From Candidatus Poribacteria bacterium (GTDB taxonomy: Bacteria; Poribacteria; WGA-4E; WGA-3G): 11,565 nt of DNA. Made by a program: the position numbers and the translations under genes. Below, piece by piece: positions 1,372 through 11,565 of the stretch (its first letter is position 1; each line of letters starts with the position of its first letter). The stretch is taken from NCBI GenBank assembly GCA_009845505.1, contig VXZL01000603.1:1-11565 (forward strand). Direction: 5' to 3'. The notes below the pieces were generated by a model. It saw only the letters and a program-made list of their open reading frames with translations. It did not search any database and was not told where the DNA came from.

Positions 1372-2750
1372 CAGCGGCGGCCCTCTCTTCTGCGCTGGGA
1401 TCCATCTTAGTGGCTCCAAGAACGCTTCAGGCACTCGGACGCGATAATGTGCTCCCGATTCCGCAGTTGAACCGGCTAATGGAAAAAGGTGTCGGTGAAA
1501 ATCAGGAGCCCGTGTATGCGACCTGTGTATCAGCGGCGATCGCGATGGTATTCGTGGTCATCGGGGGCGTGGACTTTATTGCACAGATTCTGAGTATGTT
1601 TTTTATGGTCATGTACGGTGCACTCTGTATGGTTTCCTTCCTTGAGTATTTCGCTGGAAATCCGTCTTACCGCCCCACATTCCATTCCCGTTGGTACCTG
1701 TCGCTGTTGGGTGCAGTGATGTGCGGGTTGATGATGGTTCAAATAAGCCTGCTTTACGCGTTCATCTCGGTTGGACTTATGGTCGTAACCTACTTTGGGC
1801 TCCGACGGAGCAGACAAGGTCAGCGGGATTTGACAGCTATCTTTCAAGGGACAATGTTCCAACTGACTCGATGGATTCAAACGACACTACAGAAGAGCCG
1901 CGTCATTACATCTGAAGATGGATGGAGACCTTCCATTGTCGCTGTGACTCGATTCGGCGCCCGACGTCTTGGACATTTCGATTTACTCCGCTGGATTTGC
2001 CATAGACACGGGTTTGGGCACTTTCTTCAATTCCTCCATGCGGATTACTCGTCTTCAAGGGCACAAGAAGCCCGCCGCCTCGTCAACCGGTTAATCCAAC
2101 GTACAGAGGTTAGTAGCGCAGGCATTTTTGTAGATGCGGTCGTTTGCCCGACGTTCCAGCTCGCGATCGCACAGGTACTACAGACCCCTGGTATTTCGGG
2201 TTTGCCTAACAATTGTATCTTGCTTGAGTTCCAACAGGAAAACCCTGATGAACTCGATGAGGTTAGACAAGGCACCCATCTCGCATCGGATTTAATGTTC
2301 AACATTCTTATCCTCCGTTCGACGGAGTATCGCTTCGGGTATCGCGCCTCCATTCATATCTGGGTAACAGAAGATGACTTGAAAAATGCACCACTGATGC
2401 TGCTATTGGCGTATATCATTGTAGGGCATCCAGAGTGGAAGCGCGCCAGCATCCGGCTCTTCGTTTGCTCAGAAACCAAGAACGCCGAGCGTGAGGCGGA
2501 CAGACTCTCGACACTTATAGCAGAAGGACGACTGCCTATCTCAAGGCAAAGGGTGACCTCCGTCTCCTACGACAGCAAAACGGCTTTAGAAGCAGAAGTG
2601 GATCGCCGATCTTCTCAGGCTGACCTTGTTATGGTAGGTTTATCGGAGAAAGATTTGGAGGCTGATAAATTCGCAGAGACCTTACAGTCGTTTGCGGCAG
2701 CCAACGATGTCCTATTTGTTCATTCAGCTGAACAAATTTCGATTGATTAG
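1344..2750 (+). CDS. SLC12-type cotransporter, C-terminal part (frameshifted)
   Basis: This frame continues the SLC12-type transporter. It opens with IYIGLAAAALSSALGSILVAPRTLQALGRDNVLP, split here as IYIGLAAAALSSALG and SILVAPRTLQALGRDN, which matches the TM8-loop region of animal members (SAPRxxQALxxDNxxP). About four more membrane segments follow, up to a positively charged stretch near 1800-1825 (RRSRQGQR). A soluble C-terminal domain of about 300 residues comes next, as in NKCC/KCC proteins. It includes a late segment (QADLVMVGLSEKD and VLFVHS) that resembles the nucleotide-binding-like fold of SLC12 tails. The GTG at 1344 is only where the open frame begins. It has no ribosome-binding site and lies inside the gene, so it is unlikely to be a genuine start. 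Read through the shift from 505, the protein would be 748 residues. Either the gene is broken or the sequence has an error. The intact C-terminal frame argues for recent or artefactual damage. Confidence 0.82.
   Translation: MGPAIYIGLAAAALSSALGSILVAPRTLQALGRDNVLPIPQLNRLMEKGVGENQEPVYATCVSAAIAMVFVVIGGVDFIAQILSMFFMVMYGALCMVSFLEYFAGNPSYRPTFHSRWYLSLLGAVMCGLMMVQISLLYAFISVGLMVVTYFGLRRSRQGQRDLTAIFQGTMFQLTRWIQTTLQKSRVITSEDGWRPSIVAVTRFGARRLGHFDLLRWICHRHGFGHFLQFLHADYSSSRAQEARRLVNRLIQRTEVSSAGIFVDAVVCPTFQLAIAQVLQTPGISGLPNNCILLEFQQENPDELDEVRQGTHLASDLMFNILILRSTEYRFGYRASIHIWVTEDDLKNAPLMLLLAYIIVGHPEWKRASIRLFVCSETKNAEREADRLSTLIAEGRLPISRQRVTSVSYDSKTALEAEVDRRSSQADLVMVGLSEKDLEADKFAETLQSFAAANDVLFVHSAEQISID
1346..1353 (+). 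other. Frameshift site in the transporter gene
   Basis: The upstream frame reads Ser-Leu-Trp-Gly-Pro through TCT CTG TGG GGC CCG. The homologous continuation Ala-Ile-Tyr-Ile-Gly-Leu is in the -1 frame from 1353. One missing base in the G4C3 run would explain this, either as a true deletion or as a homopolymer assembly error. Formally the bases GGGCCCG (1347-1353) also fit the X-XXY-YYZ pattern for programmed -1 slippage. However, only a weak 5-bp stem (1372-1376 with 1393-1397) follows, and it begins 18 bases downstream of the heptamer, so programming is not well supported. Confidence 0.75.
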
Positions 2751-2780
2751 TAGAAAAATCTTGATTTTTGGCGTTTTTTT
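2714..2780 (+). terminator. Possible terminator-like stem-loops
   Basis: A perfect 9-bp stem (2714-2722 with 2729-2737, loop TTCAGC) overlaps the last transporter codons. It is followed by a weak A/T stem (2754-2759 with 2764-2769) and a run of seven T (2774-2780). The strong stem and the T-run are 36 bases apart, so this is not a canonical intrinsic terminator. It could attenuate transcription between the transporter and the downstream enzymes. Confidence 0.25.
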
Positions 2781-2790
2781 ACGATTACAG

Positions 2791-3618
2791 ATGAGACACA
2801 ATAACATGACGCACCAAAACACACAAACTATATGGAACATAACAAAAGGTCACAGTCCAATCGTAGCAGCAGCGATTCATGATGGGCATCGGGTACGCAA
2901 GGAAGTGTCTGAAATCCTCGCGTTAACTGATGCAGAAAGGCTCAGAGAAGAGGATCCGTTTACGGCACTCTGGACTGAGGTATCCGAAACACGAATTATA
3001 GGGACACACTCTCGCTTTGAGGTGGATTTAAACCGCCCGCGTGAGAAAGCCGTCTATATTGAACCCGAAGATGCGTGGGGATTACACGTCTGGAAAGAAC
3101 GTCCAAACACGCAACTGATTGACAGATCCTTAGCGGGTTATGATGCGTTCTATGCAGAAGTCCACGCGTTGTTGAGAGACGTAGAACAGCAGTTCGGACA
3201 TTTTATTGTCTTCGATCTACACTCATATAATCATCGGCGCAATGGACCCAGTGCCCCACCAGCAGATATAGCAGGGAACCCAGAGGTTAATATTGGCACG
3301 GGAACCGGGATTGACCAGAAATGGATCCCTTTGATTCACGGTTTCATGGAAAACCTTCGGAATTTCGACTTTATGGGTAGACACCTCGATGTTAGGGAAA
3401 ACATCAAATTTCGAGGTGGACAGTTCTCACGTTGGGTTCATGAATCTTTTCCAAACTCTGGTTGTTCGCTCGCTATTGAGTTCAAAAAATTCTTCATGGA
3501 CGAATGGACAGGCGAACCGGACATGGAGAAGACCAAGACCATTCAACAAGCCTTAAAGTCCACACTTTTAGGTATACGAAAAGAACTGGCCAAATTGAGC
3601 GAAACCGATTCAGCTTAA
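2791..3618 (+). CDS. N-formylglutamate amidohydrolase-like hydrolase
   Basis: This 275-residue enzyme is of the N-formylglutamate amidohydrolase (HutG/FGase, PF05013) family. Family members hydrolyse N-formyl or N-acyl amino acids using a metal. Visible family landmarks are PIVAAAIHDGHR at residues 24-34 (HDGH at 30-33), DPFT near 50, the FEVDLNRPREKAVY stretch, DLHSYNHRR at 142-150, NIGTG, and HESFPNSG from 217 followed by LAIEFKKFFMDEW. The His, Asp and Glu residues in these blocks are the expected metal and catalytic ligands. The open frame extends back to a TTG at 2692, but that overlaps the transporter, so I chose the ATG at 2791. The ATG at 2806 is a close alternative, and neither has a strong ribosome-binding site. 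Lack of any histidine-utilisation gene nearby, and the two peptide-active genes downstream, suggest a substrate other than formylglutamate. Confidence 0.85.
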   Translation: MRHNNMTHQNTQTIWNITKGHSPIVAAAIHDGHRVRKEVSEILALTDAERLREEDPFTALWTEVSETRIIGTHSRFEVDLNRPREKAVYIEPEDAWGLHVWKERPNTQLIDRSLAGYDAFYAEVHALLRDVEQQFGHFIVFDLHSYNHRRNGPSAPPADIAGNPEVNIGTGTGIDQKWIPLIHGFMENLRNFDFMGRHLDVRENIKFRGGQFSRWVHESFPNSGCSLAIEFKKFFMDEWTGEPDMEKTKTIQQALKSTLLGIRKELAKLSETDSA

Positions 3619-3636
3619 GAAACCCTCCAAATCTGA

Positions 3637-3668
3637 AACCTCGGTACCACAAAACCGAGTGCGAGGTT
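3637..3668. repeat. Nested or alternative hairpins before the QEGLA gene
   Basis: Two perfect pairings share bases. AACCTCG (3637-3643) pairs with CGAGGTT (3662-3668), and CTCGGT (3640-3645) pairs with ACCGAG (3654-3659). They compete for 3640-3643. They could form alternative structures in the leader of the peptidase gene or may simply be a dispersed repeat. The outer arms are the same heptamers seen at 463-484. No T-tract follows. Confidence 0.5.
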
Positions 3669-3689
3669 GATTGCGTTGGTTGAGGAAAC

Positions 3690-5624
3690 ATGAGAAAAAT
3701 GGAAGATCAATCAAAAGTAACTAATAAAGTTATCAGTGATCGGTTCATCAGGACGGTTTGTTCTCGACTTGCCGAAAACAAGCAGGTACGTCGCACGCTT
3801 CCTGACCATGGACGGTTGCATATTGATCGGCAATTGCCATTTCTCTGTGTCTATCGATATCCACCAAGGCGCAAAGATGCTGGTACAGAACGTCTTGTTA
3901 TGGGACAACCATCTTATCTGATTGCTTCAGGCGACAAGCAAACTCGGGAAAGTCTATCTAAACTCATTCAGAATATAGTCCAGACATTATCACGCGAGTT
4001 TGGGGCATTTCTTATTTTGGAGATTTGGAGCAGCGGAAAAAGGGGAAATGACCTTGATGTTGATACGTTTACAACGGCACCGGAATTCCGGATTACAGCA
4101 CAATCAAATCTGAGTCCCTTTAGAACCGTTGAGACGCTCGCGGAGGCACTCCGCCTCGTTCGCGTCCGAAAACAGACGACTACCGTCAAAATTGCGAGGC
4201 ACCGAAAAATAGCTCCGCTCGGTTTACCGGCACTTTTACCAAACCCAGTTCTCAAGGAAAGCGGATGTGCTCTAATTGGGCTTGAGGTCCATCCGATCTA
4301 TCGTTCGCCTGAAACGGATGAAGTATTTCCGATAATTCGGAGGCTACTTGCACATGAAATCACTGGGGTGCTGCAGAAAACCTTTTTTCAATTCTCACGG
4401 ACACAAACGACCCATCGTCCCACACATTTTCATGTTCTGGGGCGTCGGGCAGTCGTTAAAGCAGTTTGGAAAATAGACACAGAACTTGCCGAAATTAGTA
4501 ACGCCTTTGATTTTCTGCTACAGGTTACACCCATCAACACAGAATCGGCGTATGCATCATTTAGACGTTCACATTTTGAACGCACACCCGTTTTTTACTA
4601 TCGTCCACAACCCTTTGACGCTGCAATGCTCAAACGTAAGCTCTGGAACACTCGACTCGAAAGTATAGAAGACCCCACGCTTGGTTACCTCTTTCGGGAA
4701 AAGCGGTATGAACTTGACATACAACTCACGATGCTGAGTCATATCGATACACCGCGGTTTTTTCACGGGAGCTTGCAGCTTTTTGGCAGTGTAGAAGACG
4801 AGCTATTGGAACTTGCTGAGAAAATAGTAGAACAAGTGCCTTCGCACAGTCGCGAGAGGGGATCTAAGATTAGACTTGATGCCACGGCTTTTGCGAAACG
4901 CGTCGAAGAGGAACTTCAATACTATCGACAGCAATTACCCGAATTTTCTGCAAACGCTGAAATACGTGATGATATTTACACGGGACTTATGGTGTCCAAG
5001 GGAAACCTACTCATCGGAAAAAAAACAAGGATTTCAGATTCTCGCGCTGATGCGTTAATTCAGCATGAAGTCGGCACGCATATACTCACCTATTTCAATG
5101 GACGTGCGCAACCTTTCCAGATGCTCTATACTGGACTTGCAGGTTACGAAGAGATGCAGGAAGGCCTCGCGGTTCTTTCAGAGTACCTTGTCGGCGGGCT
5201 GAGTCTTCCGCGTCTACGACTCCTGGCGGCACGCGTAATTGCGGCACGCTGCCTCATAGATGGTGCTTCTTTTATCGAGACTTTTCAAATTCTCAAAGAG
5301 ACCTATTCATTCACACAACGCACAGCCTTTACTGTCACAATGAGAGTCTACCGCAGCGGCGGTTTAATTAAAGATGCAGTTTATCTCAGGGGTCTTGTAG
5401 GTTTGTTAGACTATTTAAAAAAAGGCGGAGCACTTGAACCGCTCTTTGTGGGGAAAATCGCAGCTGAACACATTCCTATTATTCAAGAATTACAGTGGCG
5501 TAAGGTTTTAAAACCGGCACCCCTACGCCCAAGATATATGGAACATCCAAATATAGAAGAGAAATTCAACGCACTACGTAAAGGGCTATCCGTCCTTGAC
5601 TTCATCAAAAAGGAGAAAAAATGA
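3690..5624 (+). CDS. QEGLA-motif metallopeptidase (DUF1704 family)
   Basis: This 644-residue protein belongs to the family annotated as flavohemoglobin expression-modulating QEGLA protein (DUF1704, PF08014). The diagnostic pair is present: HEVGTH at residues 459-464 (HExxxH zinc site) and QEGLA at 490-494, whose Glu491 is the probable third zinc ligand. The eukaryotic members are MATCAP tubulin tyrosine carboxypeptidases, so a carboxypeptidase activity on a small peptide or tailed protein is a reasonable inference. The bacterial substrate is unknown. The first 250 or so residues form an extra N-terminal region I cannot assign. No signal peptide is seen, so it is probably cytoplasmic. The ATG at 3690 has GAGG 4 bases upstream, and Met at 3699 is an alternative. 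The gene ends in an ATGA overlap with the ATP-grasp gene, so the two are co-translated. Confidence 0.88.
   Translation: MRKMEDQSKVTNKVISDRFIRTVCSRLAENKQVRRTLPDHGRLHIDRQLPFLCVYRYPPRRKDAGTERLVMGQPSYLIASGDKQTRESLSKLIQNIVQTLSREFGAFLILEIWSSGKRGNDLDVDTFTTAPEFRITAQSNLSPFRTVETLAEALRLVRVRKQTTTVKIARHRKIAPLGLPALLPNPVLKESGCALIGLEVHPIYRSPETDEVFPIIRRLLAHEITGVLQKTFFQFSRTQTTHRPTHFHVLGRRAVVKAVWKIDTELAEISNAFDFLLQVTPINTESAYASFRRSHFERTPVFYYRPQPFDAAMLKRKLWNTRLESIEDPTLGYLFREKRYELDIQLTMLSHIDTPRFFHGSLQLFGSVEDELLELAEKIVEQVPSHSRERGSKIRLDATAFAKRVEEELQYYRQQLPEFSANAEIRDDIYTGLMVSKGNLLIGKKTRISDSRADALIQHEVGTHILTYFNGRAQPFQMLYTGLAGYEEMQEGLAVLSEYLVGGLSLPRLRLLAARVIAARCLIDGASFIETFQILKETYSFTQRTAFTVTMRVYRSGGLIKDAVYLRGLVGLLDYLKKGGALEPLFVGKIAAEHIPIIQELQWRKVLKPAPLRPRYMEHPNIEEKFNALRKGLSVLDFIKKEKK
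5611..5624 (+). promoter_or_regulatory. Coupled RBS and ATGA stop-start overlap
   Basis: AGGAG (5611-5615) lies 5 bases before the ATG at 5621. The TGA stop of the peptidase (5622-5624) overlaps that ATG. This is the clearest Shine-Dalgarno site in the window. It indicates translational coupling and probably fixed stoichiometry of the peptidase and the ATP-grasp ligase. Confidence 0.85.
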
Positions 5625-6667
5625 AAATCGGATTCCTCATCAATGATCTGGAAACTGAACAAGCAGGATACACAACGACTCGGCTGGCAATGCAGGCGAT
5701 CAATATGGGACATGAGGCGTGGATAATAGCAGTAGGCGACCTCGCTTACGATCCAGATGAGTATATCCGCGCCACGGCGCGTATGGCACCACGCGGAAAT
5801 TATAAATCTCACGAAACCTATTTTAATGACCTGCAAAGCAGAAGGGCAAAAGTCGAGCGTATTACCGTCGATGAATTAGATATTTTGCTCCTGCGGAACA
5901 ATCCAGCGGATGATGCTATTGCAAAACCTTGGGCGCAAAACGCAGGACTCATTTTCGGGAGAGTTGCAATGCGGCATGGTGTTATTGTGCTTAATGATCC
6001 AAATGGGCTTGCCAAAGCACTCAATAAAATGTATTTCCAACTTTTCCCCGAAGAAGTGAGACCGAGAACCTTAATTACGAGAAGTCAAAGCGAGATCAAG
6101 GCATTTGCTGAAGAACAAGACGGGACAATCGTCCTGAAACCGCTCCAGGGATCCGGTGGACAAAGCGTTTTTCTTGTGAGACCTGATGACCTTCCAAATA
6201 TCAATCAGATGATTGAGGCAGTAGCCAGAGATGGATATGTCATTGCACAAGAATACCTACCGGCAGCAGCAGAAGGCGACACCCGCCTGTTCGTTCTCAA
6301 TGGACAGCCGTTGCGTTATCGTGGTAGATATGCTGCTTTCCGTCGTGTTCGCATGGGTGGCGACATGAGAAGTAACATTCACGCGGGTGGGAAACTGCGG
6401 CAGGCGGAAATTACGGATACCGCCTTAGAACTCGTTGAAATGGTCCGTCCTAAATTAGTTCAAGACGGCATGTTCTTGGTAGGTTTGGACATTGTAGGTG
6501 ACAAACTTATGGAGATTAATGTGTTCAGCCCAGGCGGGTTGGGAAGCGCACAACGGTTTGAAAAAGTGAATTTCAACATCGCCGTTATCGAGGCACTTGA
6601 GAAAAAGGTGCAGTACATGAAATACTACCGGCGAAACTTTGACAACGTGGAAATGGCAGTCCTGTAA
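5621..6667 (+). CDS. Glutathione-synthetase-like ATP-grasp ligase
   Basis: This 348-residue ATP-grasp carboxylate-amine ligase most resembles prokaryotic glutathione synthetase (GshB). A GshB-type N-terminal domain (MKIGFLINDLE) is followed by the ATP-grasp core. This has LKPLQGSGGQSVF at about 172-184 (Lys173 and the flexible Gly-rich loop), AQEYLPAAAEGDTRL with Glu211 and Arg222, a RMGGDMRSNIHAGG loop, and GLDIVGDKLMEINVFSPGG with Asp290, Glu298 and Asn300 as the Mg-ATP ligands. The same blocks in GshB read KPLxGxGG, EGDxR, RxNxxxGG and GLDxxGxxLxEINxxSP. All catalytic positions appear intact. No glutamate-cysteine ligase gene is nearby, and the gene is coupled to a DUF1704 peptidase and follows an amidohydrolase. 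Its product may therefore be a different gamma-glutamyl or peptide compound, or a protein tail, rather than glutathione. It ends 4 bases from the convergent phoU stop. Confidence 0.86.
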   Translation: MKIGFLINDLETEQAGYTTTRLAMQAINMGHEAWIIAVGDLAYDPDEYIRATARMAPRGNYKSHETYFNDLQSRRAKVERITVDELDILLLRNNPADDAIAKPWAQNAGLIFGRVAMRHGVIVLNDPNGLAKALNKMYFQLFPEEVRPRTLITRSQSEIKAFAEEQDGTIVLKPLQGSGGQSVFLVRPDDLPNINQMIEAVARDGYVIAQEYLPAAAEGDTRLFVLNGQPLRYRGRYAAFRRVRMGGDMRSNIHAGGKLRQAEITDTALELVEMVRPKLVQDGMFLVGLDIVGDKLMEINVFSPGGLGSAQRFEKVNFNIAVIEALEKKVQYMKYYRRNFDNVEMAVL

Positions 6668-6671
6668 GTGT

Positions 6672-7313
6672 TTAAGAATGTCGGATGATGTCGCCTTTGA
6701 CGAGATAGTAGACCTCTTCACCGATATTTGCTGCGAGGTCGCCCACGCGTTCGAGATGGCGGAAAAGGAGTAAGATGCTGATACCCGGTGGAATAAGTGC
6801 GGGATGTTCGGTTAGCGTCGCGAGAAGTTCATGGAGCATCTTTTGATAAATTTCATCGACCTCATTGTCGCGTTCTCGGATTTCTAAGGCGAGTTCAGCG
6901 TTTCGGTTAACGAAAGCATCCAACACATCCTTTACCATGGTTTGAATCACTTGTGCGACATACGGTAAATCGACGAAAGGTTTGAGGGGTGGATATTCCA
7001 ATAATTCAAGACTTCGTTTCGCAATAGCGACGCTTTTATCGGCAATCCTTTCAATGTTGAAACTGATCTTCATTACCGTCGCCAGGAAGCGGAGCTCAAA
7101 AGCGACGGGTTGATGGAGTGCGATGAGTTGGATACAAGATGATTCGATTTCGTTTTCAAACCGATCAATCTGATCATCTGTAGCAATCACTGTCCGTGCT
7201 AATGCCTCGTCTCGCGTTAGAACGGATTCAATGGTTTGGCGTAGCATCTGTTCAGAAAGCCCTGCCATTTCCAAAAGTTTATGCTGAAGTTCTCTGATTT
7301 CATTCGCTAACAT
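6672..7313 (-). CDS. phoU: PhoU phosphate signalling protein
   Basis: This 213-residue cytoplasmic PhoU is the normal size, with two three-helix repeats. Each repeat ends in the family's metal-cluster motif: ERIADKSVAIAKR at 88-100 and ERVGDLAANIGEE at 188-200. PhoU connects the Pst transporter to the PhoR/PhoB sensor system and limits phosphate uptake. Here it is the last gene of the minus-strand block, after the third PstB, which is the usual final position in pst operons. The ATG is at 7311-7313. AGGAG (complement of 7329-7333) is 15 bases upstream, which is rather far. A gap of 137 bases with a degenerate inverted repeat separates it from pstB, so it might be expressed at a different level. 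Confidence 0.9.
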   Translation of the reverse strand: MLANEIRELQHKLLEMAGLSEQMLRQTIESVLTRDEALARTVIATDDQIDRFENEIESSCIQLIALHQPVAFELRFLATVMKISFNIERIADKSVAIAKRSLELLEYPPLKPFVDLPYVAQVIQTMVKDVLDAFVNRNAELALEIRERDNEVDEIYQKMLHELLATLTEHPALIPPGISILLLFRHLERVGDLAANIGEEVYYLVKGDIIRHS

Positions 7314-7450: not shown

Positions 7451-8215
7451 TTACCCCATTCTACCTGTTACATACTGTTCCGTTCTGCTGTCCTGTGGGT
7501 TGGTAAAGATTCTTTCCGTTGCTCCAAATTCGATTAACTCGCCGCCGTAAAGAAATCCTGCAACATCAGAAACGCGAGCGGCTTGCCTTCTTTTGTTCGT
7601 GGCGAAAATGAGTGTGCAATCGTTTGTCAACTCCCGCATAAGGGTCTCAATCTTAACAGTCTCAATAGGATCAAGTTCACCACAGGGCTCATCGAATATC
7701 AGAACCTCTGGTTCAGCAGCCAAGGCGCGTGCGACACAGAGCAGCTGCTGTTGTCCCGTGGATAACTGCGCCGGTGTTTCGTCTAAGATGCCCTTGACCT
7801 CATTCCAGAGTCCGGTTCTTCGGAGGTTTCCCTCAACAACGACATTTAACTCAGAGGTTCGGTTTACGCCTGAAATCCGAGCTGCATACGCTATATTTTC
7901 GTGGATAGATCCTTGGAATAAGACGGGTCTTCGGAACACCATCCCGATCTGTTTCCGCACAATTGTAGCGTCCTGCTCGGCATACAAAGAGCTCCCCTTA
8001 AAAAGGATTTCACCGGTGAATTTGAAGTTTGGTGTAAAGTCGTTTAATCGATTGAAGCACCGGACAAGGGTGCTTTTACCGCAGTTAGCGGGCCCGATGA
8101 AAGCCGTTATCCGTTTTTCCTGAACCTCAAAAGAGAGCGGCTTCAGAATCTCCTTTTCACCATACCAGATATTCAGATCACGAATGCTTAGAATAGATCG
8201 CTCTTTTGCGGTCAT
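7451..8215 (-). CDS. pstB: PstB-like ATPase 3, Q-loop and H-loop altered
   Basis: This 254-residue ABC ATPase of the phosphate importer type shows the PstB landmark RCFNRLND after Walker A. Walker A is GPANCGKST (41-49), the signature is LSTGQ (151-155), and Walker B is VLIFDE (171-176) with the catalytic Glu176. Two key residues are changed. The Q-loop glutamine is Arg95 (MVFRRP, usually MVFQRP) and the switch histidine is Asn207 (FATN, usually VTHN). The D-loop is GELD instead of SALD. I checked both substitutions in the DNA (CGA and AAC codons). As a homodimer it would probably hydrolyse ATP poorly, but it could donate its signature motif to PstB 2. No clear Shine-Dalgarno precedes the ATG at 8213-8215. 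The 104-base gap to pstA holds no gene, only a weak CGCGA/TCGCG pair at 8228-8248. Confidence 0.88.
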   Translation of the reverse strand: MTAKERSILSIRDLNIWYGEKEILKPLSFEVQEKRITAFIGPANCGKSTLVRCFNRLNDFTPNFKFTGEILFKGSSLYAEQDATIVRKQIGMVFRRPVLFQGSIHENIAYAARISGVNRTSELNVVVEGNLRRTGLWNEVKGILDETPAQLSTGQQQLLCVARALAAEPEVLIFDEPCGELDPIETVKIETLMRELTNDCTLIFATNKRRQAARVSDVAGFLYGGELIEFGATERIFTNPQDSRTEQYVTGRMG

Positions 8216-8319
8216 TATTGTCTGTATCGCGAGGTATTGAAATTCGCGCTCCGTGTCTCCGATATGTGTTCGTCTTAAACATTTAACGCAGTTAACAAAC
8301 TTAAACGCACCAGCAAACG

Positions 8320-9159
8320 TCAGGTGTGTCGTATCGAAACAGCAGCGTGTCTCTCAGCGAGGAAACTTGAGAAAATACTCAACAGCAACGCACCACCTAA
8401 AAACAGCATAAATCTGCCGGACGCTTGTCCAGACTGGACTGGACGACTCCAGATACAGATACCGACGAATAAGGCGGCGGCGGCAAGTGCGCAAGACATC
8501 GCACGGCATCCACCAGCAAGTATCCGTCGGCGTGCAAGCGGCACGACATGTTCCATCAGCACTTGCCAGCGATTGGCACCAAGTGCGTACGCGGCTTCAC
8601 GAATTGGCATCGGTACCGACCGAAGTGCTTCTTGGGTCGTCTTAATCGTCCTCGGCATCACTAACAAAATAAAGGTCAACACGGCGATATAAAACAGCGT
8701 CGTATCACCTTGAAAAGAGCCTGTTTTCAATGAAGTCGCATCCAAACTTTCCGCAGCCATAAGCCCCTCAACCGTTCCGAAAACACCACTGTAGGGCAGA
8801 AAAATTGAGACTGCTAAAAGTCCATATAAAAGCGAGGGGACACTGCTTAAAATACCGACCTGACTCTCGACGAAACGTCGAACCCAATTTGTCTCTCGAA
8901 GCCACTCTTCAAAGTAAAAGGCACATAGCACCGCAAACAAAATTGCGAAAAAACTAATAATTAAAAAAAGATAGAGATCGCTGAGTGGTCCCGATAGCGT
9001 CTCCGAGACAGGTATTACTGATGATACCTCTACATCAGAGACGCGCAATTTTTGTAGAAGGTACCATATTGGGATGAACACCGCTCCCAGTATAACGAGC
9101 GCAATACTCTGCAAAGCGAATTTTTGTCTTGGATTCGGACGAGTCATTAAAGAATTCAT
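8320..9159 (-). CDS. pstA: PstA-like ABC permease, divergent
   Basis: This 279-residue inner-membrane permease has about six membrane segments (near 15-36, 62-83, 101-122, 153-170, 216-236 and 247-267). The segment YFEEWLRETNWVRRFVESQ followed by SVPSLLYGLLAV matches the PstA pattern (EEYA...VPSxxYGLxG). An EAA loop (REAAYALGANRWQVLMEHV, 187-205) contacts the ATPase. The conserved RALGET-type segment that normally follows the EAA loop reads ALAAAA (224-229) in ungapped register, encoded by a run of four GCC codons, so the usual charged residues are missing there. It is the only permease in the window. It would need a PstC partner encoded elsewhere or form a homodimer. The ATG at 9157-9159 is weakly supported (Met5 at 9145-9147 is an alternative) because repeats abut the start and no ribosome-binding site is visible. 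Confidence 0.83.
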   Translation of the reverse strand: MNSLMTRPNPRQKFALQSIALVILGAVFIPIWYLLQKLRVSDVEVSSVIPVSETLSGPLSDLYLFLIISFFAILFAVLCAFYFEEWLRETNWVRRFVESQVGILSSVPSLLYGLLAVSIFLPYSGVFGTVEGLMAAESLDATSLKTGSFQGDTTLFYIAVLTFILLVMPRTIKTTQEALRSVPMPIREAAYALGANRWQVLMEHVVPLARRRILAGGCRAMSCALAAAALFVGICIWSRPVQSGQASGRFMLFLGGALLLSIFSSFLAERHAAVSIRHT

Positions 9160-9167
9160 AATATTGG

Positions 9168-9339
9168 CAATCAGCGGGAATAGCAGTCAGCACGCTGCGC
9201 TTTCAGCAATCAGCAGTCAGCAAGAGGAAGATCCTTTAAACGGAACAGATCTTTACTGACCGCTGAGAGGGTTGCGTAGCAATCCCGGTTCATGCCACAC
9301 GGAGAACCTGAATACCGTTGATGCTGAATGCTGAATGCT
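9168..9339. repeat. CNNTCAG heptad repeats with inverted copy
   Basis: The gap between pstB 2 and pstA consists of repeat-like DNA. CNNTCAG units stand at 9168-9174, 9184-9190 and in tandem at 9200-9220 (CTTTCAG CAATCAG CAGTCAG). Bases 9322-9339 are an inverted copy of 9205-9222 with 16 of 18 matches. Inside lie two more palindromes: AAGATC/GATCTT (9228-9233 with 9248-9253) and TTGC-GTA-GCAA extended by GGG/CCC (9269-9286). The unit begins 8 bases upstream of the pstA ATG and ends 4 bases before the pstB 2 stop codon. This looks like a miniature palindromic or heptad element that could stabilise or attenuate the operon mRNA. Confidence 0.6.
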
Positions 9340-9343
9340 ATCC

Positions 9344-10117
9344 TTATCCGTACCGCATTTGCACATAATCTGCAGTTTTGGGGTGTTCTGGTGTCTGAAA
9401 CAGTGCCTGTGTCTCTCTATATTCAATAAGTTCACCGAGGAACATGAAGATACACTCTTTACTCACGCGTCGCGCTTGCGCCATATTGTGCGTCACAATT
9501 AAGAATGTGTAGGTTCCTGCGAGTACCTCCATGAGTTCTTCAACAGCGAGTGTTCCTTTTGCATCCAAGGCGGAGCACGGTTCGTCCATGAGAATAACTT
9601 TCGGCTTAAGCGGTAATAGCCGCGCGATACAGAGTTTCTGTTGCTGTTCAAGCTGAAGTGTTGTTGCGCGGACCTTCAATCTATCCTTTAGGTCATCCCA
9701 GAGGAAAACAGAGGTTAAAGCTTCTTCAACGATCTGATCGCAGTCCGTCCGTGTTAGGCTGCGCATTGGTGAGTGAATCCGCAAACCGAATAAGACATTT
9801 TCGTAAACCGAAATTGGCAATGGATTCGGTCGCTGGAACACCATACCGACGGCTTTGCGGAGTTCTGGTAAAGAGACATCTGGGTCGTAGATATTTTTTC
9901 CGAGGACCTCAATTTTCCCCTTGGTCGTGACGTTGCCGTAACGCTCGTTGACCCGATTAAAACAGCGAAGTAATGTCGATTTCCCGCATCCTGATGGACC
10001 GATAAGAGAGGTTATCTGACCATTGGGTATTTTGACATTGACATCAATGAGTGCTTGAAAATCGCCGTACCAGAGACTAAGATTTTCAGTTTCAATGCTA
10101 TAATTCATCATTCCCAT
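9344..10117 (-). CDS. pstB: PstB-like ATPase 2, signature motif lost
   Basis: This 257-residue PstB-type ATPase has an intact catalytic half. Walker A is GPSGCGKST (40-48), the Q-loop is VFQRPNPLP (Gln95), Walker B is VILMDE (174-179), the D-loop is SALD, and the switch is VTHNM with His210. The ABC signature, which should read LSGGQ, is LQLEQ (154-158; bases 9644-9658), confirmed codon by codon. The following QQQKLCIAR remains normal, so this is not a frameshift. In an ABC dimer the signature acts on the partner's ATP. A homodimer would therefore lack both active signature contacts, whereas pairing with PstB 1 or PstB 3 would create one full site. The RCFNRVNE stretch supports PstB identity. 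The ATG at 10115-10117 lies 12 bases after the PstB 1 stop, so the two are co-transcribed. Confidence 0.88.
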   Translation of the reverse strand: MGMMNYSIETENLSLWYGDFQALIDVNVKIPNGQITSLIGPSGCGKSTLLRCFNRVNERYGNVTTKGKIEVLGKNIYDPDVSLPELRKAVGMVFQRPNPLPISVYENVLFGLRIHSPMRSLTRTDCDQIVEEALTSVFLWDDLKDRLKVRATTLQLEQQQKLCIARLLPLKPKVILMDEPCSALDAKGTLAVEELMEVLAGTYTFLIVTHNMAQARRVSKECIFMFLGELIEYRETQALFQTPEHPKTADYVQMRYG

Positions 10118-10129
10118 AGTTTAAAAAAT

Positions 10130-10915
10130 TTAGCCAAAAGTGCCGTTGACGTAATCGTAAGTGGCCTGATTCCTCGGGTTGTCAGAAAAAATCACATCGG
10201 TTGTATCAATCTCAACGAGATCGCAATTGAGCATAAAAGCGGTGCGGTTTGCTTCCGGTTTCGCCTGTTGAACAAGATTGGTGACAAGAAGAATCGTCAT
10301 TTCCGTCCGTAAAGTTTTCAGGACGTCTTCAATACGCATCGTTGTAACAGGATCGACAGCAATAGAAAATTCATCAAGACAGAGAATCTCCGGTTGATGC
10401 GAGAGGGCGCGGGCGATCGTAAGGCGTTGTTGTTGTCCACCAGAGAGTTTCGTCCCAAGCGTATCCAGCCTATCTTTGACTTCATCCCAGAGTGCAGCTT
10501 GCTGCAGACACCGCTCAACGATTTCGTCTAATTCCGATTTTGCCCGAACGCTTGCTGTCCGCGGTGCGAAAGCGACGTTATCGTATATTGAAAGGGGGAG
10601 TCCTACGGGCAACGGCAACACCATACCGATACGCCGACGTAAGCCATAAACATCGCCAATCGTGCTAATGTCTACGCCATCAAGTTTTACAGAACCTTCT
10701 ATAGTCGTTCCTGCCGTAAATTCCAGCGTTCTGTTGATAACCCGCAAAAGTGTGGTCTTACCCGACTGCGCAGGTCCAATGATACCGAGAATCTCATTTT
10801 TATGGACATCAAAAGAGATTCCGTTCAGCGCAGGTGTATCGCCGTAACGGACCGTCAGATCGTTGATTTCAATTATAGGTGTGGTTTGTGAATCATTATT
10901 ACCATTCGTGTTCAT
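10130..10915 (-). CDS. pstB: PstB-like ATPase 1, Q-loop and H-loop altered
   Basis: This 261-residue PstB-type ATPase has Walker A GPAQSGKTT (47-55), an intact signature LSGGQ (157-161) and Walker B ILCLDE with Glu182. The Q-loop region is MVLPLPVGLP, with Pro101 where glutamine is expected. The conserved DEP after Walker B is DEF, the D-loop is IAVD, and the switch histidine is Asn213 (LVTN). I checked these changes in the nucleotide sequence. The pattern matches the degenerate-site half of asymmetric ABC transporters, and PstB 3 shows the same two losses. The N-terminus has an extra polar stretch of about 13 residues (MNTNGNNDSQ). Its ATG (10913-10915) is 5 bases after the channel stop, with no clear Shine-Dalgarno, which suggests coupling with the channel gene. 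Confidence 0.88.
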   Translation of the reverse strand: MNTNGNNDSQTTPIIEINDLTVRYGDTPALNGISFDVHKNEILGIIGPAQSGKTTLLRVINRTLEFTAGTTIEGSVKLDGVDISTIGDVYGLRRRIGMVLPLPVGLPLSIYDNVAFAPRTASVRAKSELDEIVERCLQQAALWDEVKDRLDTLGTKLSGGQQQRLTIARALSHQPEILCLDEFSIAVDPVTTMRIEDVLKTLRTEMTILLVTNLVQQAKPEANRTAFMLNCDLVEIDTTDVIFSDNPRNQATYDYVNGTFG

Positions 10916-10920
10916 ATTTT

Positions 10921-11565
10921 TTAGCCACTTTTTGTGTCGCTGTGTTCCGTAGATTGATTCTCTTTTTCTTCAGCTTCCTCTGCTGCTTCGCGTTCCACGC
11001 GTGCTTCCGTCAAAGCCGATGCCAACAATCCAGAAGGAATCGCGATAAGCCCTACACCCACAAGGGTGACGAGCGCAGTGAAAACCCTTCCACCGCCTGT
11101 TTCTGGATAGACATCTCCATACCCGACAGTTGTCAATGTCACAACAGCCCACCACATCGAATCAAGGATAGAGCCGAACTTTTCAGGTTGGACATCTCTC
11201 TCAAAGTAGTGGATCCCGCATGCCGCGAGATAGACGAGCATCAACGATAAGATAACGAGTGCCAAGAGTTCTTGCTGGATGCCACGAAGTGCTGTTGCGA
11301 GCCGATCAACTGCGAGGATAAAACGGGTTGCCTTGAAGATTCTGAAGACCCGCAAGAATCGGAGGACGCGTAGCACACGAAATCCGGGGACGAGAAACAG
11401 AGACGGTAAAATCGCCAGCAAATCAATTATACCATAGAAACTGAAAATGAAATCCCGTTTTCTGGGTTCAATGTAGACCCGCAGTGCATATTCCGCTGAA
11501 AATAAAACAAAAAACACCCAGTCTAAAATAAGAAAATGCGTTGCATATCCGGCTAATCCCCACAC
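10921..11565 (-). CDS. Voltage-gated K+ channel, 5' end outside window
   Basis: This is a partial protein of 214 or more residues that runs off the right edge of the window. It is a Kv-type channel. Helices S2 and S3 are followed by an S4 sensor with Arg at every third position (RVLRVLRFLRVFRIFK), an S4-S5 linker and S5. The pore helix carries the TTVGYGD selectivity filter (bases 11113-11133), then comes S6 with a Gly-rich hinge (VGVGLIAIPSGLLASAL). A short charged, probably helical tail rich in Glu and Ala ends it. The filter sequence makes K+ selectivity certain for the family. Segment S1 is missing, so the GTG at the window edge is not the true start. It is the first visible gene of the pst block, 5 bases from PstB 1, so a functional or regulatory link between K+ flux and phosphate uptake is possible. 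Confidence 0.9.
   Translation of the reverse strand: MWGLAGYATHFLILDWVFFVLFSAEYALRVYIEPRKRDFIFSFYGIIDLLAILPSLFLVPGFRVLRVLRFLRVFRIFKATRFILAVDRLATALRGIQQELLALVILSLMLVYLAACGIHYFERDVQPEKFGSILDSMWWAVVTLTTVGYGDVYPETGGGRVFTALVTLVGVGLIAIPSGLLASALTEARVEREAAEEAEEKENQSTEHSDTKSG

Follow-up and report, generated by a model that had tools for sequence, protein, structure and literature searches.

How can a phosphate importer be powered when none of its ATPase subunits appears to be complete? The question is raised by an 11,565-nucleotide contig of a Candidatus Poribacteria bacterium (assembly GCA_009845505.1, contig VXZL01000603.1), referred to here, at its full length, as the window, which carries part of a pst operon with three genes for PstB-like ATPases, PstB1, PstB2 and PstB3. 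The original prediction was that PstB2 might have to work with one of the other two as a mixed ATPase, either partner being possible. By our comparisons, PstB1 and PstB2 very probably form an obligate heterodimer that serves PstS-PstC-PstA as the ATPase of phosphate import, while PstB3 appears to have a different origin and to stand outside this core.

Complementary motif loss in PstB1 and PstB2

According to PMC7756269, the ATP sites of an ATP-binding cassette (ABC) transporter are shared between subunits: at each site one contributes Walker A and B, Q-loop and H-loop, and the other the signature. Neither PstB1 nor PstB2 holds the complete set of ABC motifs in one protein, and their losses are complementary. 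We use the term N-type for PstBs with an LSGGQ signature in which the Q-loop Gln is lost and Asn replaces the switch His (TN or SN for TH), and E-type for those with an LxxE signature in which Gln and His are kept; a strict E-type must have an acid at signature position 4. The two genes and their sites, the latter placed by alignment (Pro101 being counted from the translation), are:

10130..10915, minus strand: pstB1 (N-type), intact open reading frame (ORF); LSGGQ retained, Gln replaced by Pro101, switch His by Asn213
10613..10615, minus strand: PstB1 Pro101 codon, at the Q-loop Gln position
10433..10447, minus strand: PstB1 LSGGQ signature, residues 157-161
10277..10279, minus strand: PstB1 Asn213 codon, at the switch-His position
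9344..10117, minus strand: pstB2 (E-type), intact ORF; Walker A/B complete, Gln95 and His210 kept, signature changed to LQLEQ
9833..9835, minus strand: PstB2 Gln95 codon (Q-loop)
9644..9658, minus strand: PstB2 LQLEQ at the LSGGQ position, residues 154-158, the acid being position 4
9488..9490, minus strand: PstB2 His210 codon (switch His)

The motifs read GPAQSGKTT, GMVLP(101), LSGGQ, DE and N213 in PstB1, and GPSGCGKST, GMVFQ(95)RPNP, LQLEQ (154-158), DE and H210 in PstB2. Given the shared-site architecture, a mixed dimer would have one complete and one degenerate site, and homodimers would have no complete site at all.

Both patterns are fixed among relatives. PstB2 is present in all 57 genomes of a family sample (the window's own genome, 36 of the same genus and 20 further family members; one copy is truncated), and at 73-77% identity in seven of 14 other genomes of the order. 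With the canonical loci L112-L119 excluded and PstB1 lying beyond the contig end in two loci, every PstB1 row from family and order combines LSGGQ with Pro in place of the Q-loop Gln and Asn in place of the switch His (62/62), and every PstB2 row keeps Walker A/B, Gln and His and has LQLEQ (64/64), exactly as had been described for the window copies. Given this invariance, the patterns exceed chance. A protein-collection search (8000 candidates, best 120 examined for each query) gave LQLEQ in 118 of the 120 best-listed PstB2 relatives, a few of them with labels such as Gemmatimonadota, Latescibacteria or Zixibacteria, the exceptions being P0054 (IQLEQ) and P0060 (a two-domain frame with LQLEQ in its E part); LSGGQ and VTN occur in 120/120 best-listed PstB1 relatives.

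Across 66 N, 67 E and 31 canonical rows, we looked for positions conserved in at least 80% of canonical PstBs and in less than 15% of N or E. There are 16 such positions, nine lying in Walker A, Q-loop, signature and H-loop (PstB2 44, 95, 98, 100, 156, 157, 207, 210 and 212) and seven elsewhere (36, 37, 57, 137, 138, 195 and 223). In the N rows Gln is always lost (P 30, A 28, S 8) and His is Asn in 66/66. The first signature glycine is kept in 4/67 E rows and the second in none, an acid standing at the second in all 67 (65 E, 2 D); since it is constant, this acid is suggested to be under selection rather than a random replacement.

N/E pairs beyond the Poribacteria

A scan with the PstB2 alignment (one genome per species, best 80 matches kept) included E-type proteins in ten non-Poribacterial loci, whose record labels, used here as taxon names, include Holophagales, Binatia, Accumulibacter, Elusimicrobiota, Ignavibacteriae, WOR-1, Deltaproteobacteria, planctomycete and Acidobacteria. 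An N-type gene lies directly before the E-type gene in nine of the ten; in the tenth (Elusimicrobiota, L126) the E-type stands at a contig end with the partner position outside view, and the N/E pair was also found in the phylum of that record. The genes pstS-pstC-pstA lie upstream of the pair in nine of the ten loci, the tenth being interrupted by a contig end.

Searches with N and E profiles extended this set. The N profile was run against 247 genomes each of the phyla of G105 (Acidobacteria label) and G103 (Deltaproteobacteria label), and the 30 best loci per phylum were read, giving 57 new loci once L236, L263 and L264 had been dropped as repeat genomes. One N-type and one E-type occur in 54 of these, with N upstream in 54/54. 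The E-type acid and the loss of the N-type Gln had been left out of the classification of these pairs; the acid is present in all 54 (52 E, 2 D), and the Gln is lost in all 54 (24 A, 24 P, 6 S). The other three loci (L289-L291) have a different Q-loop-deficient PstB, with VPH and without an acid partner, and are treated as exceptions to the N/E rule. The E profile, run against the phyla of G101 (247 genomes), G104 (246) and G100 (149), yielded 85 new loci, of which 65 hold strict E-types; the other 20 comprise 15 canonical PstBs, four with ISGGQ or MSGGQ (L303, L308, L345, L347) and one with LSIGQ (L346). An N-type is found in the same locus as 60 of the 65 strict E-types. The five without one all belong to the G100 phylum, one of them stands at a contig end, and all five genomes carry an N-type elsewhere.

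Over all tabulated sets, which include eight hand-picked Poribacterial loci and the sets found with the N profile, N is present in 131 of 137 E loci and elsewhere in five of the six remaining genomes; none was found in the sixth, G100, a 1.5 Mb assembly. Because only the best loci were read, these counts are lower bounds and not frequencies. Distances among N-types and among E-types are correlated over the 131 pairs (mirror-tree r = 0.895, permutations at most 0.050), although this mostly reflects shared inheritance, for which the permutations give no control.

Several other arrangements were seen in these searches. In one further pair locus (L251/L386; L386 600-1484, minus strand; Acidobacteria-labelled phylum) a third, degenerate ABC gene, in which Q-loop, signature and His are all lost, comes after the N/E pair; a second copy of this gene is present elsewhere in that genome (L402). 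In L383 and L384 the PstB of one pst operon has lost the Q-loop Gln but has VPH, and a neighbouring pst operon has a canonical PstB beside one with LTLGQ; only the LTLGQ protein is visible in L385.

Operon layout, ancestry and selection

The remaining operon genes of the window, one of which (pstA') falls between the pstB genes and had gone unmentioned in the original prediction (range 7451..10915), are:

10921..11565, minus strand: potassium-channel-like gene (kch, Ion_trans), interrupted by the contig end; in relatives it sits between pstA and pstB1
8320..9159, minus strand: pstA', PstA-like permease, TIGR00974 94.7 bits, below the cut-off of 193.45
7451..8215, minus strand: pstB3, intact ORF, canonical-PstB descendant by tree; Arg95 for Gln, LSTGQ, Asn207 for His
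6672..7313, minus strand: phoU, final operon gene, TIGR02135 203.6 bits, above cut-off

The order pstS-pstC-pstA-kch-pstB1-pstB2-pstA'-pstB3-phoU is found in 52 of the 57 family loci (the kch call being doubled in five of these and phoU split in one). Five loci lack part of this set. Four of these are cut by a contig end, among them the window, whose contig ends inside kch, before pstS-pstC-pstA. In the fifth (L090) the upstream genes are absent within the stretch fetched. The seven order relatives have pstS-pstC-pstA-pstB1-pstB2 without pstA' or pstB3 (one has a second PstC match at the expected place of pstS), with phoU in front of the pst genes in six. The three-gene set recurs in the family, and the seven order relatives have only the pair. 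PstB1-PstB2 thus belongs with the standard permease, and pstA'-pstB3 comes as an extra.

Two features of these operons are recorded in their own right. A voltage-gated potassium-channel-like gene (Ion_trans) lies inside the phosphate operon, in the pstA-pstB1 gap, in the same 52 family loci (e.g. L055, 5345-6118). The PhoU of the order relative L111 (8969-10159, minus strand) is extended by a C-terminal part, which presumably resembles a low-molecular-weight phosphatase.

A quick, unrooted tree built without any of the motif columns sets the 24 E rows apart from all others by one branch and the 23 N rows by another (support by Shimodaira-Hasegawa-like approximate likelihood ratio test, SH-aLRT, 94 each). 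PstB3 (100) clusters with the canonical PstBs of Poribacterial relatives (99), and so was rejected as a third member of the N class. Those relatives carry pstA-pstB-phoU, with a PhoU 62-66% identical to that of the window. From the place of PstB3 in the tree and the PhoU identity, an ordinary operon seems to have left PstB3, PstA' and PhoU as its remnant.

The motifs of PstB3 are GPANCGKST, GMVFR(95), LSTGQ, DE and N207 (numbering counted by hand on the translation), as first described, but among relatives only the change of His to Asn is constant (56/56 rows), so that conservation of substitutions within each paralogue holds for PstB1 and PstB2 and fails in part for PstB3. Its Gln position reads R 36, Q 9, H 4, P 3, G 2 and E 2 in the 56 readable rows (one more row is masked), and its signature LSIGQ 17, LSTGQ 15, LSNGQ 10, LPTGQ 3, LSISQ 3, LSIGH 2 and others.

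All operon genes are constrained. The ratio of non-synonymous to synonymous substitution (dN/dS; Nei-Gojobori method, NG86; median of 16 close pairs, 15 for PstS, PstC, PstA and Kch) is 0.039 for PstA, 0.049 for PstC, 0.060 for PstB2, 0.071 for PhoU, 0.074 for PstB1, 0.106 for PstS, 0.121 for PstB3, 0.149 for Kch and 0.246 for PstA'. PstB3 and PstA' are thus less constrained than PstB1, PstB2 and PstA. PstA' is the fastest-evolving gene of the operon, yet its ORF is present in 57/57 family loci.

As members of the PstB family (TIGR00972, curated cut-off 343.2 bits), the three proteins give matches of 313.5 (PstB2), 299.1 (PstB3) and 268.4 bits (PstB1), all with E-values of 5e-80 or better and all below the cut-off; four canonical controls scored in the same way reach 388.5 to 423.4 bits. 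Among six non-Poribacterial pair members, four also fall below it (L127 N 328.5, L124 N 281.1, L124 E 317.6, L131 N 322.6) and two above (L127 E 369.4, L131 E 354.1). The genes pstS, pstC, pstA and phoU are co-encoded with the PstBs in the family loci.

Elsewhere in the window, an amino-acid-permease-like ORF (448-1371, PF00324 match) may be continued by an overlapping ORF in another frame (1344-2750), and 2692-6667 holds genes like N-formylglutamate amidohydrolase, MATCAP (PF08014) and ATP-grasp glutathione synthetase, possibly a peptide or amide ligase system.

A proposed heterodimeric ATPase and its alternatives

In the tabulated pairs the E-type pocket and the N-type signature together supply, by sequence, all catalytic residues of one composite site, and at the other an LxxE/D signature faces the replacements of His by Asn and of Gln by Ala, Pro or Ser, with the Walker B Glu retained. 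From this we infer a heterodimer in which PstB2 would be the catalytic subunit, giving Walker A/B, Q-loop Gln and switch His, and PstB1 the signature donor, whose LSGGQ would complete the PstB2 site. The second site would be degenerate, the PstB1 pocket without Gln and His lying opposite the acidic LxxEQ of PstB2; it probably holds ATP or closes without hydrolysis, so that one ATP site would serve each stroke. The obligate mixed ATPase of the original prediction is thereby strongly supported for PstB2 with PstB1, by losses that are complementary and fixed in each paralogue, by the joint occurrence and order of the two genes in several phyla, by purifying selection and by the parallel with known ABC transporters that have degenerate sites.

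Some observations weigh against so simple a scheme. The N-types retain the Walker A Lys and the Walker B Asp-Glu, so that the second site may hydrolyse ATP slowly. In nine of the 62 PstB1 rows a Gln immediately precedes the canonical position (GMVQPLP), and eight of the 60 N-types from the E-profile search have MSGGQ or ISGGQ. Pairing within the operon is not absolute: for one strict E-type the N-type lies some 3 kb upstream, and for three more the surrounding 10 kb or so contain no N-type. A separate canonical PstB is present in seven of the ten named non-Poribacterial genomes (an eighth, G100, has a truncated one), with which N or E could in principle pair. Nor do protein fusions lend much help: a joined-query search gave 231 matches, and among the best 120, judged by eye, 14 proteins have two PstB stretches, but most of the apparent N-E fusions resemble frameshifts and three (P0268, P0286, P0320) are canonical-canonical chimeras. 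P0241, P0242 and P0060 were rejected as likely frameshifts close to where the N part ends, P0244, P0279 and P0294 for garbled N ends, P0292 and P0327 because only the tail of the N part is present, and P0330 as one E-type in two pieces. P0243 and P0245 may be real N-E fusions and offer a weak lead; as each is on a single contig, and in view of the chimeras, we give fusions little weight.

It has been suggested that PstB3 could also donate the signature to PstB2, so that two mixed ATPases would exist and the mode of transport could be switched. PstB3 does keep LSxGQ in most rows, is present in all 57 family loci and is under purifying selection, but its signature and Q-loop drift, and it has a different ancestry, linked with PstA' and PhoU. 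Neither the seven order loci nor the nine other pair loci whose surroundings were read showed a PstB3. We regard this role as unlikely, and PstB3 as an equal partner is not supported. PstB3 and PstA' would instead stand outside the core as the drifting rest of an ordinary pstS-pstC-pstA-pstB-phoU operon, kept beside PhoU more likely for regulation than for transport. Simple decay of redundant paralogues is partly true of these two, which evolve faster; as an account of all the motif losses it is very improbable, and random decay of PstB1 and PstB2 is disfavoured by their low dN/dS and by invariant patterns that recur across phyla.

The pair could also be a nucleotide-binding sensor with reduced hydrolysis, the Pst complex acting mainly as a phosphate receptor for PhoU signalling. 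A PhoU match lies near the pair in six of the ten named non-Poribacterial loci (one is weak, at 27% identity), and the canonical PstB of seven of those genomes could carry out bulk transport. Yet one composite site is complete in the tabulated pairs, dN/dS within the operon is lowest for PstC and PstA, and no canonical PstB above the TIGR00972 cut-off was found in the window's own genome (86% complete); a mainly sensory function is improbable.

Relation to known systems

The exporters TAP1/TAP2, TM287/288 and Pdr5, in which nucleotide-binding domain (NBD) and transmembrane domain are in one chain, share one complete and one degenerate composite site with the proposed PstB1:PstB2 dimer. PstB1 and PstB2, unlike these, are separate NBD subunits of a binding-protein-dependent importer and both keep the Walker B Glu. 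The E-type acid stands at the position affected by G551D of CFTR. In yeast Pdr5 the NBD2 signature is LNVEQ, with the same acid at position 4 as in LxxEQ, and at the degenerate site the H-loop His has been replaced (PMC7756269). The best PDB sequence match to PstB2 (E 2.9e-70) is a canonical PstB of the same family, for which one sequence (four chains in two entries, 9k3x/9k3y) has LSGGQ, Gln and His, whereas PstB1 and PstB2 are each incomplete.

Among the papers listed, the nearest system is Enterococcus faecalis pstB1/pstB2 (PMC12096839), where a pst operon likewise has two pstB genes side by side whose functions are not equivalent; both proteins have intact motifs, unlike those of the window, and the authors state there that the relative contributions of tandem pstB paralogues had not been published before for any microbe. 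The premise that PstB is normally a single homodimeric protein thus needs qualifying. In PMC11466899, Bacillus subtilis PstBA and PstBB are listed as both NBDs of one modelled complex, and the ribose and guanosine importers RbsA and NupO likewise have one degenerate ATP site by sequence; these are, however, single fused polypeptides whose second Walker A lacks Lys, and are neither Pst nor encoded by separate genes. No description of complementary PstB motif loss was found among the matches listed from open PubMed Central (8 to 20 of up to 250 matching papers per search), subscription papers and preprints being outside the search.

With confidence only a little on the favourable side, we propose that the N/E pairs represent a phylum-spanning and previously unrecognised class of Pst importer, an obligate heterodimer which, judging from its motifs, would have a single hydrolytic site and a Pdr5-like acidic dead signature (LxxEQ), possibly spending one ATP per phosphate and not two. 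Pst is a textbook high-affinity phosphate importer and PstB a textbook homodimer, and a split motor, as many little-studied bacteria appear to have, would depart from this picture. If the proposal is true, many genes annotated as PstB in several phyla would be unable to work alone, and the pair would provide an importer that naturally runs on one site, with which to address the old debate over the need for two ATP hydrolyses in each import cycle.

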